DNA from: Tremella fuciformis
Lineage: Eukaryota; Basidiomycota; Tremellomycetes; Tremellales; Tremellaceae
Direction of reading: 5' to 3'
Assembly (NCBI GenBank): GCA_032768795.1
Contig: CP136492.1
Span: 1,426,001 to 1,490,000, forward strand
DNA: 64,000 bases
How positions within the stretch are numbered: position 1 is the first letter of the stretch; each line of letters begins with the position of its first letter. Position numbers and translations under genes: made by a program. The notes under the pieces are model-generated. The model saw only the letters and a program-made list of their open reading frames with translations, had not been told where the DNA came from and did no database searches. Below, piece by piece: positions 805-49,109 of the stretch.

Positions 805-3800
805 GGGATGGTGGACAACAGCTCGGCGAGCATCATCCCTTTCCGCATCGACTCGCCGCGACCGTAATCTCTGACTGTTCCCGTTCTCCTTCATCCCAGA
901 TCGATGATACCCGTATACCCGTGACTCACACTGATTCCCCACAAGGTTGGGCAGCCTCTGAGAGGCTCCTAGACAACCCCACGCACGCTGTTGTCGCAGG
1001 TCGCATCAGCGGGCATCCCGCGAAGATCCTCCTGGATTCAGGAGCCTCCGCTAACTTCCTCGCCAAGTCGTTCGCCGAGCGACACCGCATTGCCCTCAAT
1101 GCGTACGACAAGCCCGTCGGACTCACCTTGTTTGACGGAGTAGAGTCGTCTGATGGCCCGCTGACTCACTTCTCTCGCGAGCGAGTCGAGGTGGGCCAGT
1201 ATGCTGGCACAGCAAGGTTCGAGCTCACGCGCTTGAATGGAGCTGATGCAGTGTTGGGCTACCCGTGGCTGCGAACTCGCCGAGTTGTAATCGACTTCGG
1301 CGAGGGAACTGTCACGGGAGCACCCTCGCAAGGTTGGGCAGAGCCCGTTCCCACTTCCAATGTCGCCGAGTCAATCCCTTCATCTCTCTCTCTCTCTCCG
1401 CCGCCGAGCTCCACCGTGTCCCCTGAACCCACCGAGTCCACCGTGTCCCCTGAAGTCGCCGAGTCTATCGAGTTCCCTACATCCGCTGCGTCCGCCGAGT
1501 CCCCTGTGCCCGTTGATCCTGAGCCCTGCTCTTCCCCTTGCCCCGCTGTCCCTACCGAGTCCGTTGATCCTGAGCTGCCCAACACCTTGCCTTCCCCCTG
1601 CTTGTCGACCAAGGATGATCGAGCAGGACGGTCGCCAAGCGCCGAGCCCTCGCTGAGGAAGCAGCAGCCGGGGAAGAGGCGAGTTAGAAAGAGGCGGATG
1701 GGAACAAAGAAACGCGCGTTCTCTCGCTCAAACTCCATCCCCGTGACTCTTCCCTGCCGCTGGCCATTCGTTGCGGTGGCTGAAGAGCTGAAACTGTGCG
1801 CGGTAGCCACAGACTCGCCGAGCTCGCTGAGGTTCGACCAGTTGGATGAGCTCAGCTCATGGCCCTCTTTCGAACCGCCCGCCGAACTCTCTGAGGCCGA
1901 GATTCAGCTGATTGCCGCCAGCGTTCCTGACCAGTACCTGGAGTTCCTCGACGTCTTCCACCCCAGGAAGGGCGTCGAGACTCTTGCACCGCACCGAGCT
2001 TATGACATGAAGATCGAGCTGAAGGAGGGCAGCTCGCTCAAGCTTGCCCCGCTCTATGAGGTCGCCCAAGATCAGAAGGAGGCTATGAGGCAAATCCTCG
2101 AGCGAGAAGAAGCCGCGGGCCGGATCCGGCCTAGCAACTCGCCGTACGGCTCGCCGACTTTCTGCGTGCGTAAGACTGACGGCGTGAACTGGCGAATGGT
2201 GGTGGATTACCGACATCTGAACAGCGCCACCGTTCCTGATGCTTACCCCGTTCCGCTGATTTCTCAAGTCATCTCTGACCTTGGTGGCTCCGAGTGGTTC
2301 TCCTGCTTTGACCTGGTCTCGGCGTACCAGTTGCTCAGGCTCGCCGAAGGATTTGAGAGCCTCACCGCCTTCCGCACGCCGTTTGGCATGTACAAGTCGC
2401 TGGTCGTGCGTGATGGGCTGCGAAACGCACCGGCCGTCTTTCAGCACTTCCTGAATGAGCTGTTCAGTGATCTCAGGCAGTGGGTCACGGTATACATCGA
2501 CGACATCATCGTCCACGCCAAGACACTCGAGGAGCTTCGCCGAGTCACTCGGCTAGTTCTGGAGCGAGTGCGAGGAACCTCTTTGTTCCTGAAGGCGAGT
2601 AAGTGCCGGTTTGAGCAGAGATCCGTGAAGTTCCTGGGGTTCTTGATCTCCAAAGACGGCGTGGCGGCTGATCCGGGCTACGTCCAAGGGGTCCAAGAGG
2701 CTTCGAGGCCCAAGGATCTCCATGAGGTGCGGCGCTTCCTGGGAATGGCGAGCTATTATCGGCGATTCGTTCCCCACTTCGCTAAAGTCGCCGGGCCGCT
2801 ACACCATCTGACGAAAGCGTCGGTCGGTTTCCATTGGGATGAGGAGCAGGAACAGGCGTTCCAGGCGCTGAAGGAGAAACTGAGCCAGGCTCCGGTGCTC
2901 GCTTTCTTCAACCCGGAGTTGCCGACGATTGTGCAGACTGACGCATCGGCCTATGGCTGGGGCTTCGTCATCTCGCAAGTCAACTCGGCGAACGAGGAGC
3001 ACCCCGTGGCCATTGAGTCGGGCTCGTTCAAAGGCGCCGAGTTGAACTACACGGTGACTGAGAAGGAGTTCCTGGCTATCGTTCACGCCTTCCGACGTAA
3101 ACGGCATCTGTTGTCCCAGGTTCATTCTACGGTCATCACTGACCACTTGAATCTTACTTACTGGATGGAACCGCGGCAGCTGAACCCTCGCCAGGCTAGA
3201 TGGGTTGAGATCTTAGCTGGGTTCGATTACAAGATCGTGTATCGCCCTGGTAAGGAGGGCGAACTTCCCGATGCGCTCTCCCGGGACTCGGCGTATCTCC
3301 CAGGGCCATTGATGCAGCAGCCGCAGAACTTCATCCAGGCACTCCCCACCGCCGACTCTTCCTCCACGGTCTCGTCCTCCCTCGGCCATCTCCTCCGTGC
3401 AGCAACACTCGGCGAGATCGGTGTCGAGGAGGAGGAGGAGGAAGAGGTCGGCGAGGAACGTGTTGAGGTCGCCGAGTTGTCCCCGGTCCTGGCTGAGTTA
3501 ACCTCTGACGCGCCTACTCTCGCCTCGACTCACCCCGTCCTGTTGGGATTTTGCCGAAGGCTCGGCTTCTCTGGGGAAGCGCTCTTGCAGCGTGACCCCG
3601 AGGGAAGGCTGCGAGTCGACGGACGACTGTACGTGGAACCGGGGCCGGAACGGGTGCAGATTCTAAAGAGGCGGCACGAAGCTATCCTCGCAGGACACCC
3701 GGGCGTTACGAAGACTCTCGAGTTGGTGAAGCGCGACTACGCGTGGCTTGGCCTCCGGCGCGACGTGGAGGCCTTCGTCCGCGCATGCGCAGTATGTCAG

Positions 3801-6889: not shown

Positions 6890-7445
6890 AAGGACCTCGC
6901 TGACCGTCTCGCCGAGTCCCTCACCGAGCCCCTCGCCGAGTCCCTCGTCGACCTCGCCGACTCCGCCGCCGACTTCCACAACCACGACTATCTCGCAGGA
7001 GCTCGATCGTAAGGTTGGGCAGAGTGTCACGACGGACGTAGGGAGAGCACATGGAAGCCACGTGGGGAGACGGAGCTCGGACTCGTTGATTCAACGCATC
7101 ACTCGCCGAGCTCACCGAGGGACGACGGATACTTAGGAAGACTGGGCGCGCGATACGTTCCGTAGTCTTCTCCCAATTGTTGTTCTCTGCAGACACGTAG
7201 ACTGCCTGCTCCGTCCCGTCGCTTGGCTTGCCAGTGACACCGAGTCCCCCGCCGAGTTCCCCGTCTACCCCTCTCAACTCGCTCGCGCTCGTCGAGTTCA
7301 CCTTCCTGCTCGCCGAGTTCAGCGAGTCCCTCGCCGCACCCCTCGCTCAACCCGTTCACCTCCTTGAGCTCAGCGAGTCCCTTGCCGAGCTCCTCGTTCA
7401 CCTCCCCGAGCTCAGCGAGCCCCTCGCCGAGCTCCTCGCCCAACT
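6890..7445 (+). repeat. Low-complexity block of CTCGCCGAG-type units
   Basis: Degenerate units such as CTCGCCGAGTCCCTC follow one another, most densely around 6905-6960 and 7310-7445. The same 9-mer (or its complement CTCGGCGAG) is frequent in the gypsy element. The block ends where recognisable copia coding sequence begins. It also contains the upstream region of the minus-strand gene that starts at 6763. No promoter elements were identified. Confidence 0.6.
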
Positions 7446-9850
7446 CGCTCATACCTATCGACGTCAACGACCCCCACGCCGACCGTTCGGAGTACGTGCC
7501 CGCCGGGCCCTGGACAGAGAAGGCGGTCGTCGTGACACCAACCCAGTTCTGGGTAGATGCACTGCGATATGTAGTCTTCACTCGGAACAGGCTACCAGGC
7601 TCCCACGCGAAAATCCCGATAACGCTCTTCCGACCAAACCACGATATCGACCTGCAGTACCAGGGGATGCAGCCATTCGGCCATCACTGCATCTATCGAA
7701 TTGTGAACCCCGCATCGAAGCTCGACAAGCGGGGACAATGCGGTCGACTGCTGGGGTACACAGAAGGGAGCTGGGGCTACAAGGTGCTGACCCAATCCAA
7801 CAGGGTCATCGCAAGCCGAGACGTCACATTCATCACGGGCAGGAAGACAACGCCCAGTTCAGATGAACCACGACAGATCCTGGAGCTGCCTCAACCTGGA
7901 CCTCGACAACCATCGACGAGCCTTGACGAGGATGACGATACATCCATCGAGCTGAACGAGATAGTCGAGGCAGGGGAGGCACCAGAAGAAGAGGAACAAG
8001 GGGAAGAGATGGACGACATACCTCCCCAAGCCGTACCCAGGCAAGGAAGAGGCTGGGTCAATGAGTACATCCGAGAGGATGCACCGAGCCCGGAACCGAA
8101 TCCCGACGACGGACCAGAGGATCCCGATCGTCGACTAAACGAGCCCACAGCGGCCGATGCAGATGAGCCAAGACGGTCGGGGAGACTAGCAGGCCAAGAA
8201 CCTAGTCATCACCCTCTGCACGACATCGACATGAACTATAACCGAGTAGCCATAGAGCACGCGTTATCAGCCCAGTCACTCAACAACCCCCAGTCATACA
8301 CCGAAGCTCGTCGAGCCACAGACTGGGAGGATTGGAAATCGGCCATGGACGAGGAGATGGGAAAGATGGAGAAGTACGGAGTGTGGGAGATGGTCCCCAA
8401 GGAGAATCACCGTACTCTTACAGGCAAATGGGTATTCACTCGCAAAATCGACGGGGACACGGGCAAAGCGAGTCAGCACAAGGCCAGATTCGTCGTGAGA
8501 GGATTTCAACAGGTCTCAGGACGAGATTTCGACGAACTCTTTGCTTCGGTCACCCACAAGTCATCATTCCGCCTATTCCTCTCCATCGTCAACTACCTCG
8601 ACTGGGAATGCGACCAAATAGACATCATTGGAGCATTCCTCAAGGCCAACATCGACAAGGACATCTTCATCGAGCCACCAGAAGGCAGCGACATCGCCGC
8701 CGGATACGTCCTGCACCTCCGGAAATCACTATACGGTCTCCGACAATCACCGCACTTGTTCAACAAGCGCCTCGACGAGTTCCTACGGGAGCTAGGCTTC
8801 AAACCGACCCTAGCGGATCCATGTATCTACTCGCTGCGACAAGGACACAAGCGGTGCATGATCTCAGTCCACGTTGACGACATGCTCATTGCCGGCAACG
8901 ATCGATCAACAATTGACGAGATCAAACGAAAGATCAACAAGGAACTCGAGTGCAAGGACCAAGGACCGGTCTCTTACTTCCTCGGTATCAACATCTACCG
9001 AGATAGGCCAAACAAGAAGATGTACCTGTCACAAGAGCACTACATCGAGGCAGTTCTTCAACGCTTCGGTGAAGCCGGCAAAGCCTGCAAGACAATCTTG
9101 CCTGACGCAAAGCTCGTCGAGGCTACGCCAAAGGAGGTCGACGAGGCTCAAGATAAACCATTTCCAGCACTCGCCGGGTCAATCCTCTATATTGCCACGA
9201 TCACCCGAGCCGACATCGCATATGCAGCATCACTGCTCTGTCGCTTCATCAGCAAATGGTCACTCACACATTGGAGGGCTGCGAAGCACCTGTTAAGGTA
9301 TCTGCGAGGGACATCCGATCTCGCGCTCACCTTTGACGCACATGCAGGAAGGAGAGCACTGCTAGGCTGGGCGGACGCAGATTGGGGTGGATGTCTCGAC
9401 ACACGTCGATCCACAACCGGCTACGTCTTCAACACGTACGGAGGCATTGTGTCATGGAAAAGCAGGCGACAACCAACAGTCGCACTCTCGACGACACAGG
9501 CAGAACTCCTGGCATCAACAGAAGCGGGCAAAGAGGCAATATGGCTCAGGCAACTATTGAACGACCTCGACCTAGGCAAAGATGGGGCAGTGCCCATCTA
9601 CAACGACAACAATGGAGCCATTCAACTGGCCAAACATCAACACGGGTTCAAATTGAACAAAGCATTCGACATGCGAGCCCAGTGGATACGAGAGCATCAA
9701 GCCGGTGGACTGCTTGAGCTCAAATACACACCAACGGACAGCAATCGAGCCGACATCCTGACCAAGAACCTTTCAGCCGAGAAGACGAGACAGCTCCGGC
9801 AGTTACTGGGCTTGGGAAGACAAGGAGAAGCAGAGCAGCAGAGTCAATAG
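7446..9850 (+). mobile_element. Ty1/copia element, 5'-truncated
   Basis: Only the 3' part of a copia element remains: the tail of the integrase, the complete reverse transcriptase and RNase H. Gag, protease and the integrase catalytic core are missing, and the sequence upstream is a low-complexity block. No LTR was identified on either side, although a purine-rich stretch (GAGGGGAGG, near 9858) follows the stop as expected of a polypurine tract. Confidence 0.85.
7473..9850 (+). pseudogene. Truncated copia polyprotein (integrase tail, RT, RNase H)
   Basis: The frame runs without a stop to 9850 but has no sensible start. The first recognisable segment is the C-terminal part of the integrase, including the SKLD-x-R-G-x-x-G-x-LLGY region. 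The reverse transcriptase of the RVT_2 type follows, with the W-V-F-x-x-K-I-D-x-D-G entry motif and the catalytic VHVDDML box near 8874. RNase H is recognised by the ADADWGG motif near 9373 and by the TKNL ending. Since the integrase core and protease are gone, the element cannot move on its own; the RT frame itself is intact. Confidence 0.85.
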
Positions 9851-10051: not shown

Positions 10052-10148
10052 CCTGTTGCCCTTCTCATCACTCATAGCAAGTGCTGAGCGGGCAACAGGT
10101 GAGTCTGAATGCATCACTCATAGCAAGTGCTGAGCGGGCAACAGGTGA
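10052..10148 (+). repeat. 37-bp direct repeat with an inverted arm
   Basis: A 37-bp segment occurs at 10066-10102 and identically at 10112-10148, 46 bp apart. Its core GGGCAACAGG is also present inverted as CCTGTTGCCC at 10052-10061, so the first copy can form a hairpin with 10052-10061. The rest of 9851-10343 contains no gene. Confidence 0.8.
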
Positions 10149-10661
10149 CCGGAATCCCATTGCCTCAGAGCTAAGATTCCGTCGGAGCACGCCTCACCCC
10201 TGCGCGGGTAGCCCGGAAGGTGGGGGTCGCAGCCCGCGCCACCTGGGCAGAGCATTGAGAGCACAGCTCACCAATGCATTACTGATCCTGTACACAAATA
10301 TCTCCGCCCGCGGGTTAAGGCCGTGGCGAGCGGTGGCGAGTCCCTACTGCGACTTCCCCTTCCCCGGGCAGTCGAAGACCCGGTGGGGTTTGCCGCAGTT
10401 GCTGCACTCGTGTTTCCGGCCTTGTGGGCAGGGCTCGGAACAGCCGGAGACGTGATACTTGACACATTGCTCAGTGGAGGCAACCGTGGCGGGTGTCTGC
10501 TTCTTCCGCTTTCTGGACGGCTCGTCGGCAGGGGCTGTGGCGGTGCGGGTGGGCTTGGAGCCGGGCTGACTCTGGCGCTCCGACCGCTCGGCCTGGCGGG
10601 TGACGCTGTCCTTGCGGATGAGGACGTTGCCGGCAGCAGCGTCGTATGCGTCGTACCAGAG

Positions 10662-10813
10662 TGTAACAATGCCAATAACCTACCACATAGCTATTGCACT
10701 GTCCAGCTAATACCACTGCACCAAAAGGGTCACGATAACCCGAGTCTGACCGAGACTCGCGGTTTGTGGTACATATAGGCTTGCAAGGTGGCGGTGTCAC
10801 GTCCGACGTGACA
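10662..10813 (-). repeat. LTR of miniature element 1 (3' LTR)
   Basis: 152 bp, identical to the copy at 11010-11161. The segment complementary to the primer-binding site is at 10735-10747. Confidence 0.92.
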
Positions 10814-11009
10814 CTCTGCCCCACCTCCCATAGGCGCGCCCTCGCGCCTATTGCCCCTCCCCCGAGGTGCAAGCCTATCTGGAACCCGAAAAGGATCCCC
10901 TAGCAGCCGCAACGTGTCCTACACGAAGGCCCAGCGCCAGGTCTTTTCAAAACACCGTCTCATCCCACTCTGGGAATCGAACCTAAGTGTCCTTAGACTC
11001 GGGTTATTA

Positions 11010-11161
11010 TGTAACAATGCCAATAACCTACCACATAGCTATTGCACTGTCCAGCTAATACCACTGCACCAAAAGGGTCACGATAACCCGAGTCTGACCG
11101 AGACTCGCGGTTTGTGGTACATATAGGCTTGCAAGGTGGCGGTGTCACGTCCGACGTGACA
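11010..11161 (-). repeat. LTR of miniature element 1 (5' LTR)
   Basis: 152 bp, identical to the copy at 10662-10813. The segment AGACTCGGGTTAT (minus strand, 11095-11083) pairs with the primer-binding segment and predicts where transcription would start if the Tf1 mechanism applies. Confidence 0.92.
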
Positions 11162-11352
11162 CAGAGGGATGTATGGAAGTCGCTGGCGAAGCGCTTGCTG
11201 GCCACCTTCAAGTGATAGCGGACGATGGAGTCCCAGGTGAAGTGGACGCTGTTGTCGATCATCCACTGGGCGTGGCTCCAGAGCGCGGTATAGATCTCGG
11301 AGGCCGCCTCAGGTTCTCCGCAGCCGTGCATGGCGAGGTCAATGAGGTTACC

Positions 11353-11492
11353 TGTCATGATGGGCATGACACGTCCAAGGTACCCTTGATAAACCGAGTT
11401 CAGGTTAGGGATTAACCAGAACTTGGGGCGCAAATATCCTTTTGGGATATTATTCCTCACCTTGAAAGACCTTGACCTTGACCCTTGTTACA
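11353..11492 (+). repeat. LTR of miniature element 2 (5' LTR)
   Basis: 140 bp, identical to 11592-11731. It contains an internal hairpin AATATCC/GGATATT next to the predicted self-priming segment. Confidence 0.92.
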
Positions 11493-11591
11493 GTAAAGGA
11501 TATTTCAGACCCAAGTTCGAATCCCGGCCTGGGCTGGGAGGGGAGGATATGCTGAGGCCCGAGGGCGGGCCTCGGTGGGGAAGGTGGATAG

Positions 11592-11731
11592 TGTCATGAT
11601 GGGCATGACACGTCCAAGGTACCCTTGATAAACCGAGTTCAGGTTAGGGATTAACCAGAACTTGGGGCGCAAATATCCTTTTGGGATATTATTCCTCACC
11701 TTGAAAGACCTTGACCTTGACCCTTGTTACA
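11592..11731 (+). repeat. LTR of miniature element 2 (3' LTR)
   Basis: 140 bp, identical to 11353-11492, directly preceded by the polypurine tract and followed by the target duplication TTACC. Confidence 0.92.
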
Positions 11732-12357
11732 TTACCCCAAGCGTAGAGGAAGACGCCGAGATTCGGGATGGCCGACTTGAAGCGTTCGACAATCTGTCCC
11801 GTCGAGTTGCGAGGCGGGGCAGCAAAGAACTGGCGCGTGTCCGGGTCCATGGAGAGGAGGAGCCTATCGGCGGAGTGGTCGTTGGCGTTCTCCCGGTATA
11901 TCTCGGCAGTGGGCGGGATGAGGAGCGGGAGCTTCTCCGGGGACAGGCGGCCGGCCATGGCAGCGGTGAGGACCTTCTCCTCCAGGAAGGAGAAGCGCTC
12001 CTCAATGCTGGGGCACTCACCGTGCTGGCTGCGGAACGGGACATGGGCCGGGTGTCCGAGCGGTTCAACGCCGAGGTCGCCGAAATCCATGAAGTTGTCG
12101 ACGTTGTCGCCTGCCTCCTGGGCGACGGCTGCCGGCGGCGGCGGGGCGGGCGGCGCGTTGCCCTTGTCGAGGAGCTGCTGTAGCATTGCCTCCACGCCGC
12201 TGAACGCCCTGGTGAACTCGTTGCGAGTAACGAATGGCTGCTCGGCGGCGGGTTGGGCACGGGGGCCCGTGCGGCGAGGTGGTGCTGGACCCGCCGCTGC
12301 AGCGGCAGCGGCGGCGCGAGCCATTCTGTCTTCGACGGTGATCCGCTTGGGGGGCAT

Positions 12358-13134
12358 CCGAGGAGGTGTGACCGTCCGGCAGCGTGAGTCGGGCAGGGTA
12401 TGCGCTTCAGCTGTTCTCCAGGTCAAAGTTGGGGACGTGCGCGTAGAGCGGCTGTTTGTCTCTGGCACGCCGCACTCCTTCTAGGCTTACAGTGACCCTC
12501 TGCTCCTCTCCAGACGTCGCGGTGGTAGTCGCGGGCGACGTGGGCGTCTCGAGCGCTGTGCAGCAGCAATCCTACACGGGACGATAGATGTCAGGATGAG
12601 AGGTCATCCTCGAGCGTCCTGTGCCCTAAGACCCCTATCCTCCCGTCACGTGATCCATCAAGGCACGTGCCTGGTGGCCGGTGGCAAACGACATGCCTTG
12701 CGCTCATCGGCTGCTCAGACATAACGTTTCGAACGATGGTCAGCCAGCCTCGCTAGCTTGTGAGGTGTCATGGTGACCTCGTGAAGTGGATGCGAGAAGC
12801 GGGAGAGCCAATGGCAGTAGGTCGTTGCGACTGGTATCCGTACGAGAGACCCGCCGATCAGACATTCACTCATGCTTACAGGACGGGGTTCAAGGCGTCC
12901 AAATGGGGGAATCCGAGGATTTGGTGACGCTCGAATCGCCTCAGAGGTCTGCCTGTCGGTTGGGAGGCCTTCTGGCAGCGATGCCCAGGACAGACTTGAT
13001 ATCAAAGGACTGCCACGCAAAAGCCTCATGTTCTTGCCGCACAAACAGTTGCCTTCCTTTGGAGACACCTTACCGTTGCACATGTCCATTAGACTACAAC
13101 TTCACTTCGTATCCAGTCAAATAACTGGGCGCAG
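12358..13134. other. Intergenic, no gene seen
   Basis: This is the divergent region between the Gag-like ORF and the first zinc-finger/phosphotransferase gene. Frames are broken and no repeat or RNA was recognised. Confidence 0.5.
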
Positions 13135-47973: not shown

Positions 47974-48428
47974 GTGGTCATCTACAATCAGAGAGCTCAG
48001 AATGATGAGGATGTCGAGGATGAAGGACGATCAGCAAGGGATATCTGGCCGAGCCGGTGAAGGTGTGCATAACTGTCTCTCCCACCGCCCGCGACACGGC
48101 GGCCGAGGGCTCAGTTGGCCAGTGAGCATGCCGCTGAGCAGCGGCTACCGCTCTCGGCGTGTCCTTGGGCGTGACTTGGAGGAAGGAACGGCCGAATCCC
48201 TTTGCCGGGAGTCACGACGAATGATGTGCAAAACCAAAGGTAGACGAGATTCAAGGCATTTGCAGCGGGCATGCTCTTTGGCCGGCGCTTTTGCTCCGGA
48301 GCTTGACTTGGACCGAATCAAAAGACGGCACTGCGGCGTGTCGATGTTGCATGCTATAGTCGCAGCCGTGTATGGCCCAGCTTGCAGTTTGACACGGAAC
48401 GGCCGTGAGACACCAAGAAAGCAAAAAT
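47974..48428. other. Intergenic between Ras and tRNA-His
   Basis: 455 bp, presumed Ras promoter; no other feature recognised. Confidence 0.4.
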
Positions 48429-48513
48429 GAGGCCTGCGTGAATCGAACACGCGTTTTTGCGGCGGTAATGATACGACCACAACGCAATTTCCTAGCCACT
48501 AGAAGAAGGCCTC
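48429..48513 (-). tRNA. tRNA-His (GTG) with short intron
   Basis: Read on the minus strand: a perfect 7-bp acceptor stem GAGGCCT/AGGCCTC and a D arm around CTAGTGGCTAGG. The anticodon stem TTGCG/CGCAA has a TTGTGG loop (anticodon GTG), and the T arm is GCGTG-TTCGATT-CACGC. An intron of about 14 nt (TCGTATCATTACCG) sits one base behind the anticodon, the standard place. CCA is not encoded. Confidence 0.85.
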
Positions 48514-49109
48514 AATTGCACGTCCAAAGGTGAACTTTTGCTCGGTTATATCATGATCACAAATATGAACGTGCAATGGGCTGGCTAATCCCACAGCGCT
48601 CATGACTGATGGAACTTATTGTCAAAACTGACCATGTCAGTGTCACACCGGTACTGCAGATATGCTTGTAACGCGAGCTACAATACCCTTGCGCACATCC
48701 ACTGATTAGCAGCCGTTTGCTGGAATCGGAGCTCAGGCACTGATCGCCTCCACCTTTCTTTCGGTTGTCCGGAACGACGTGAAGGGCATGCTTACGCCAA
48801 TAGCCTGCCTGCGACCTTGGTGCTCGGTCTGCAGGCCCCCCCCCCCCCCCCCCCCCCCCCCCTGCAGGGATTTGCTGGAATCGCCCACGAACACGTTCTA
48901 CCGGAGACGATGTGTCCGAGCAGCAGGCAATGTACGTCATCTGACTCAATGGCCCGTCCTGCCAATCGCAGTCATGGGCGATGGTCATCCAGTCCGCATA
49001 GATCAGCAGCGGCGGCAGCAGCGCTAAAGAGTGCTGGGAGGCGAATGAATTGATCGTTGTACTCCTGTCTCATCTTGAGCTTGTATTCACAACGACCAAC
49101 ATATCAACA
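48514..49109. other. Region between tRNA-His and catalase
   Basis: Contains a run of 27 C at 48836-48862 (listed separately) and a 13-mer TTTGCTGGAATCG present twice (about 48716 and 48870). The right part is the presumed catalase promoter. No gene seen. Confidence 0.5.
48836..48862 (+). repeat. Poly(C) tract of 27 bases
   Basis: An uninterrupted run of C flanked on the left by CTGCAGG and on the right by TGCAGG, so the tract is framed by mirror-placed CTGCAG sites. Confidence 0.9.

Follow-up and report, generated by a model that had tools for sequence, protein, structure and literature searches.

Two miniature elements of the window (by which we mean the whole 64-kb stretch of DNA analysed, G000:C3:1426001-1490000) are TRIMs whose primer-binding site (PBS), just past the 5' LTR, is an exact complement of a segment inside that same LTR. 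The arrangement recurs in nine subfamilies, which fall into three families, and in full-length gypsy elements of the same genome (28.1 Mb in 11 contigs). In our opinion these TRIMs are self-priming, are mobilised by the gypsy elements and are probably transcribed by RNA polymerase III (pol III); we put the probability of this model as a whole at roughly 0.58. Its first part, self-priming with a gypsy partner, we hold with high confidence, since it rests on the covariation of the paired segments and on the gypsy elements.

The two elements, their relatives and the primer pairs

Element 1 lies on the minus strand and occupies 500 bp (10662-11161), with identical 152-nt LTRs (5' LTR at 11010-11161, 3' LTR at 10662-10813) and a purine-rich tract ahead of the 3' LTR at 10814-10827. 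Element 2, on the plus strand, measures 379 bp (11353-11731); its LTRs, again identical, are 140 nt long (11353-11492 and 11592-11731), and its purine-rich tract is at 11577-11591. Both elements are complete and have 5-bp target site duplications (TSDs): CAGAG at 10657-10661 and 11162-11166 for element 1, TTACC at 11348-11352 and 11732-11736 for element 2.

As to the surroundings, the two TRIMs split what appears to be one minus-strand reading frame (10268-12468) with a CCHC-like, gag-like end as judged by eye; a Pfam scan of the two pieces of this frame around the TRIMs gave no match. A copia pol (RVT_2) at 7364-9850 adjoins the locus. A 37-nt direct repeat is present at 10066-10102 and 10112-10148, and units similar to it occur beside a truncated family-2 element in L077 and, inverted, in L073. 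The sole tRNA gene that ARAGORN found in the window is a tRNA-His gene at 48427-48514.

The genome-wide set consists of non-coding elements of 378-562 bp, with LTRs of 134-152 nt and interiors of 98-294 nt. These have what is expected of TRIMs, namely two LTRs, a short non-coding interior, a total length below 1 kb, a PBS, a purine tract and a TSD; the latter is 5 bp long in most copies and absent from L063, L066 and L069. Subfamily 1a (element 1) has at least seven near-identical full matches, two of them overlapping in a tandem; 1b (88% identical to element 1) and 1c (69%) have at least five copies each. Subfamily 2a (element 2) has at least 12 near-full matches, seven of which stand in tandem arrays, five on C5 and two on C6. 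Relatives of element 2 at 71-72% form 2b (at least one copy) and 2c (at least three), and weak matches together with a pattern search yielded at least two full copies each of 2d and 2e. Family 3, with a 134-nt LTR and a 294-nt interior, came to light in the flanks of the loci analysed and has at least 14 full matches, plus one that is nearly complete. The counts given below refer to 41 distinct copies (45 rows minus four 2b/2c duplicates), three of which belong to family 3, or to 11 representatives, i.e. the nine subfamilies and two variants.

Several details of these copies are recorded here for their own sake. In L015, at 1502-3073 (C5:351018-352592), six LTRs and five interiors of 2a form an array, after which comes an inverted unit with its junction at LTR+GT. 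In L078 (C9:337900-338500) two 1c-like LTRs are separated by TAATAG alone, a junction resembling a two-LTR cDNA junction that retains the 2 nt preceding the PBS. The LTR of each TRIM representative starts with a palindrome-like TGTCA..TGACA, which by eye is less marked at gypsy LTR starts.

The initial annotation had described, 2 nt past the 5' LTR, a 13-nt complement of the LTR in element 1 and an 11-nt one in element 2. Both are exact. In element 1 the self-primer segment AGACTCGGGTTAT (11083-11095, minus strand) pairs with the PBS ATAACCCGAGTCT (10995-11007); in element 2, AAATATCCTTT (11432-11442, plus strand) pairs with AAAGGATATTT (11495-11505). For either LTR, none of 2000 dinucleotide shuffles gave a match as long as the observed one. 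The RNA starts that had been predicted, 11095 for element 1 and 11432 for element 2, coincide with edges of these segments.

In all 11 representatives, too, 2 nt separate the LTR from the PBS, which pairs with it over 11-15 nt, a length that 0/2000 shuffles per LTR equalled. It was also proposed that the complementarity is shared while the sequence is not, and this was borne out, as the TRIMs have six different LTR/PBS pairs: that of element 1 in 1a and 1b, GAGACTCGGGTCAT/ATGACCCGAGTCTC in 1c, that of element 2 in 2a, AGATTTCCTTT/AAAGGAAATCT in 2b, 2d and 2e, AGAATTCCTTT/AAAGGAATTCT in 2c, and TAAGGATCCGTTA/TAACGGATCCTTA in family 3. Across the copies the two segments covary, and 40 of the 41 copies keep the full pairing of 11-15 nt; the exception, L044, has one PBS base changed. 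When the PBS of a given TRIM is set against LTRs with a different primer, the match is at most 9 nt.

This covariation bears directly on the idea that the elements are primed by a tRNA or half-tRNA, as fungal Helenus and copia are, the complementarity to the LTR being secondary. Fungal Helenus sites do mostly correspond to anticodon loops, as far as the available portion of PMC10886601 goes. Against this, the LTR partner and the PBS co-vary, and in family 1 the PBS, which matches its own LTR, has no other match in the genome: all 69 matches of AGACTCGGGTYAT (family 1 only, assigned by eye) lie within these LTR elements, in a search that is blind to matches spanning a tRNA splice junction. We therefore regard priming by a tRNA as very unlikely.

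Gypsy elements with the same arrangement

A search of the genome with PF00078 matched at least 150 places (150 of 339 candidates were scored), and the 5' ends of 12 gypsy elements were analysed, including the close kin L080/L087, L071/L072 and L081/L082. With gaps of 0-4 nt allowed, the best complementarity in all 12 is of 9-15 nt and begins 2 nt past a TGACA-like end. The edge of the LTR is confirmed by a second LTR in L071, L084 and L086, is ambiguous by up to 7 nt in L072, and is set by the motif and the complementarity in the remaining elements. The observed length was equalled by 1-7 of 2000 shuffles for L072, L073, L081, L084 and L086, and by none for the other seven. The 12 elements have nine distinct primer/PBS pairs, which brings the number of pairs to 15 in all.

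Six gypsy LTR starts were compared with those of the TRIMs. Family 1 shares its LTR start with L086 (11 identical nt for 1a and 1b, 7 for 1c), family 2 with L071-L073 (8-10 nt) and family 3 with L084 (11 nt, or 17/18 by eye); GATAAC at the start of the interior is also common to family 3 and L084. L086 has identical LTRs of 406 nt, and L084 has LTRs of 772 nt that are 99% identical, with the TSD TCTTT. The expected gypsy element with the same LTR ends was thus found as far as the terminal 7-11 nt are concerned, and not for whole LTRs; an autonomous partner with the same entire LTR was absent among the matches listed. The one same-strand pair about 5 kb apart among them, C5:429242 and C5:434406, was rejected as such a partner, being two complementary pieces of one LTR. 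At C5:429242-434471 an insert of about 5.1 kb apparently interrupts a family-1 LTR, with an overlap of 5 nt.

A scan of the pol reading frames of L071, L073 and L074 found SH3_Tf2-1 in all three and Chromo in L071 and L073, both of them family-2 partners. The initial annotation had named a Tf1/sushi-type chromovirus as the mobiliser. The genome does hold chromodomain gypsy elements with a self-priming PBS and LTR starts in common with the TRIMs; their assignment to that clade derives from domains and priming mode, not from a tree, so this part of the claim stands with that qualification.

We consider Tf1-like self-priming of the TRIMs well supported at the level of sequence, because the pairing covaries, all 12 gypsy elements are alike in it and the LTR starts are shared. 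The RNA would begin in the 5' LTR, at the self-primer or slightly upstream, and its 5' end would fold back and anneal to the PBS, which is 2 nt from the LTR. Cleavage where the paired segment ends would then give a new 3' end that primes minus-strand DNA, as in Tf1, with the proteins of the gypsy elements presumably acting in trans.

Longer pairing and pol III type signals

In element 2 the pairing is much longer than the 11 nt first described. An LTR arm at 11397-11442 is complementary, with gaps, to 11495-11535, and this includes a second exact segment, the 9-mer CCCAAGTTC (11510-11518), which is the complement of 11419-11427. We compared the 35 nt upstream of the primer with the 30 nt after the PBS in each representative and in the 12 gypsy elements, using 500 shuffles. 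Pairing far above chance was obtained for 2a (element 2; no shuffle was equally stable), 2b (0.2%), 2c and the 2c variant (0% each). The values for 1b (7.6%) and 2e (11.8%) are borderline or not above chance, and in 1a, its variant, 1c, 2d, family 3 and 12/12 gypsy elements at least 24% of shuffles did as well, i.e. the pairing was not above chance. Roughly the first 44 nt of the 2a-2c interior have a gapped complement in the LTR, which makes a long inverted repeat that extends over PBS and B box; in 2d and 2e this repeat is weak or missing. As part of the arm lies only some 10-20 nt past the TATA-like box, the RNA may not carry it in full. It is possible that the arm is an ancestral inverted duplication.

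One may ask whether the complementarity in general is fortuitous or comes from an inverted repeat that plays no part in priming, such as a relic of LTR sequence that was duplicated in inverted orientation into the interior. The 2a-2c arm, whose upstream end is only a few nt from the TATA-like box, does exceed what a primer needs, and 9-nt matches arise in up to 7/2000 shuffles of a 400-nt gypsy LTR. Against this explanation stand the constant offset of 2 nt, the 15 different pairs and the preservation of the pairing in 40/41 copies, and we give it even less credence than priming by a tRNA.

RNA folds, computed unconstrained with the 5' end assumed to be 25 nt before the end of a TTTT run (described below), form the primer/PBS helix in 1a, 1b, 1c, 2b, 2c and 3. 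The fold of 2a contains the second helix alone, with the primer segment folded back; that of 2d has a partial primer helix, and that of 2e has neither helix. A distance of 24-26 nt from the start of the pairing to the end of the TTTT run holds for the exact segments of 1a, 1b, 1c and 3 (27 in the 1a variant). We dropped it as a general rule because the exact segment of family 2 begins 12 nt before that end, weaker pairing extending upstream.

Signals of pol III type, which the initial annotation did not mention, accompany the primer in most subfamilies. Each 5' LTR of the 41 copies has exactly one TTTT, at the end of the primer segment or directly after it (11440-11443 in element 2). It is followed in seven of the nine subfamilies (1a, 1b, 1c, 2c, 2d, 2e and 3; 28/41 copies) by an A box, TRGYNNARNN(N)G, in its strict 11-nt form in 1a, 1b, 1c and 2e and with one extra nt in 2c, 2d and 3. 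No A box was found in 2a, which is element 2, or in 2b (13/41 copies). TTTT by itself occurs in 1.5-15% of shuffles; TTTT and A box together at this LTR site occur in at most 0.001 of them (1a, 1c, 2c, 2d, 2e and 3 were tested). A B box is located at interior positions 22-28 to 32-38 in eight of the nine subfamilies (38/41 copies), and 0.65-3.4% of shuffled interiors match it by chance; family 3, the exception, has GTTCAAATA, one base off. Six subfamilies have both boxes, the motif combination of a pol III TRIM (TRIMp3). In element 1 the TATA-like TATATG (11120-11125) starts 30 nt ahead of the self-primer, the A box TGGTGCAGTGG is at 11061-11071 and the B box GGTTCGATTCC is in the interior at 10973-10983, all on the minus strand; in element 2 the B box AGTTCGAATCC is at 11514-11524, in the interior and within the long pairing. 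Where both exist, the TATA-like box precedes the A box by 48-61 nt; its distance to the primer is 25-30 nt, and 44-49 nt in family 2.

Searches of the TRIMs for RNA genes added little. ARAGORN in its normal modes found no tRNA gene in the 11 representatives, and its most permissive mode gave 44 low-scoring matches dispersed over both strands; Rfam gave no match to the TRIMs up to an E value of 5. Nor do we use avoidance of T runs as proof of pol III: there are extra TTTT runs in the element body (two in 1a, one in 1c), and T4 runs are not depleted relative to A4 runs (3 against 2).

On these motifs, we lean slightly towards RNA polymerase III as the enzyme that makes the TRIM RNA, starting near the self-primer; the checks of the TTTT distance and of the extended pairing reduced our confidence from moderate to barely better than even. 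In most families the promoter would consist of the TATA-like box, the A box of the LTR and the B box just within the interior. The TTTT ahead of the A box would be read through in the 5' LTR and may terminate the RNA in the 3' LTR; for families 1 and 3 this would give an R of about 24-27 nt (in element 1, the 25 nt from the self-primer to the TTTT, 11071-11095). The passage through TTTT in the 5' LTR and the active-looking 2a without an A box are the weakest steps.

The main alternative is that the self-primed RNA is made by pol II from the TATA-like box, the A and B-like boxes being relics or serving RNA pairing or packaging. TATA-like boxes precede the primer in the TRIMs (25-49 nt) and in 7/12 gypsy elements (31-42 nt), and 2a has its 12 or more near-full matches without an A box. 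Further, the B box of 2a-2c sits in a stretch complementary to the LTR, and hence pairing may be what keeps it there. However, a B box is kept in four of the five subfamilies 1a, 1c, 2d, 2e and 3, where the extended pairing is at chance level. The best argument that the B box is selected as such is that the interiors of 1a, 1b and 1c diverge widely around it, with no above-chance pairing in 1a and 1c. Likewise, TTTT and A box are present in three families whose LTRs gave no mutual matches in the searches, and in none of the 12 gypsy elements is there an A box or TTTT up to 40-45 nt from the primer, or a B box in the first 45 nt of the interior. Transcription by pol II is thus a serious alternative, to which we assign distinctly less than an even chance.

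If pol III is the enzyme, solo LTRs and the 3' LTR would have no complete promoter, because the B box is outside the LTR. We would then propose, tentatively and with about as much reserve as we attach to pol II, a new class of retroelement. In it, a segment of about 25 nt would be pol III start region, reverse transcription primer and R at once, and the promoter would be split over the border of LTR and interior so that only a complete element fires; the class would have arisen on at least three self-priming gypsy families.

Comparison with known elements

Neither TRIMs nor self-priming nor pol III TRIMs are new. A paper on a bivalve TRIM mentions self-priming for other elements and, in its available part, gives no clear mechanism for its own TRIM. 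In the open-licence literature we found no self-priming TRIM, no split promoter in a pol III TRIM and no case of self-priming combined with pol III boxes.

Tf1 of S. pombe is a self-priming LTR retrotransposon with a PBS beside the 5' LTR that is complementary to its own LTR. The same is described for Tj1 of S. japonicus in the available portion of PMC4600332. The elements described here are like Tf1 and Tj1 in the position of the PBS and in its complementarity; they differ in being non-coding, 378-562 bp in length and mostly equipped with boxes of pol III type. The yeast U6 gene SNR6 has a TATA box, an A box and a distant B box, as many of our TRIMs do; it is a cellular gene, and the likeness is a lead only.

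Helenus is a TRIM whose LTR contains the A box as well as the B box (Kojima 2024, PMC10886601). Its fungal members have a 5-bp TSD, mostly tRNA anticodon-loop primers and copia partners (PMC10886601), and the available portion of that paper reports no complementarity between the tRNA-like sequence of the LTR and the PBS. The likeness lies in the TRIM structure, the two boxes, the 5-bp TSD in fungi and tandem arrays in one family. In contrast to Helenus, our elements have the B box in the interior rather than both boxes in the LTR, the LTR rather than a tRNA as primer, and gypsy as partner. Cassandra, a TRIM with a 5S promoter, makes a pol III RNA from LTR to LTR with an R of 18 bp (PMC10886601, as far as available). 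An LTR-to-LTR pol III RNA with a short R is also what we envisage, here as a prediction; the boxes are A and B rather than 5S, and the primer is the element itself.

If our model is true, what a parasite of retrotransposons requires is LTR ends that match and a self-complementary primer pair of whatever sequence; a common PBS sequence is not needed, because each TRIM family has a pair of its own. The model would also suggest how elements with identical LTRs come to have a promoter at just one of their ends. Pol III TRIMs and self-priming, which have been reported separately, would be joined in one element.
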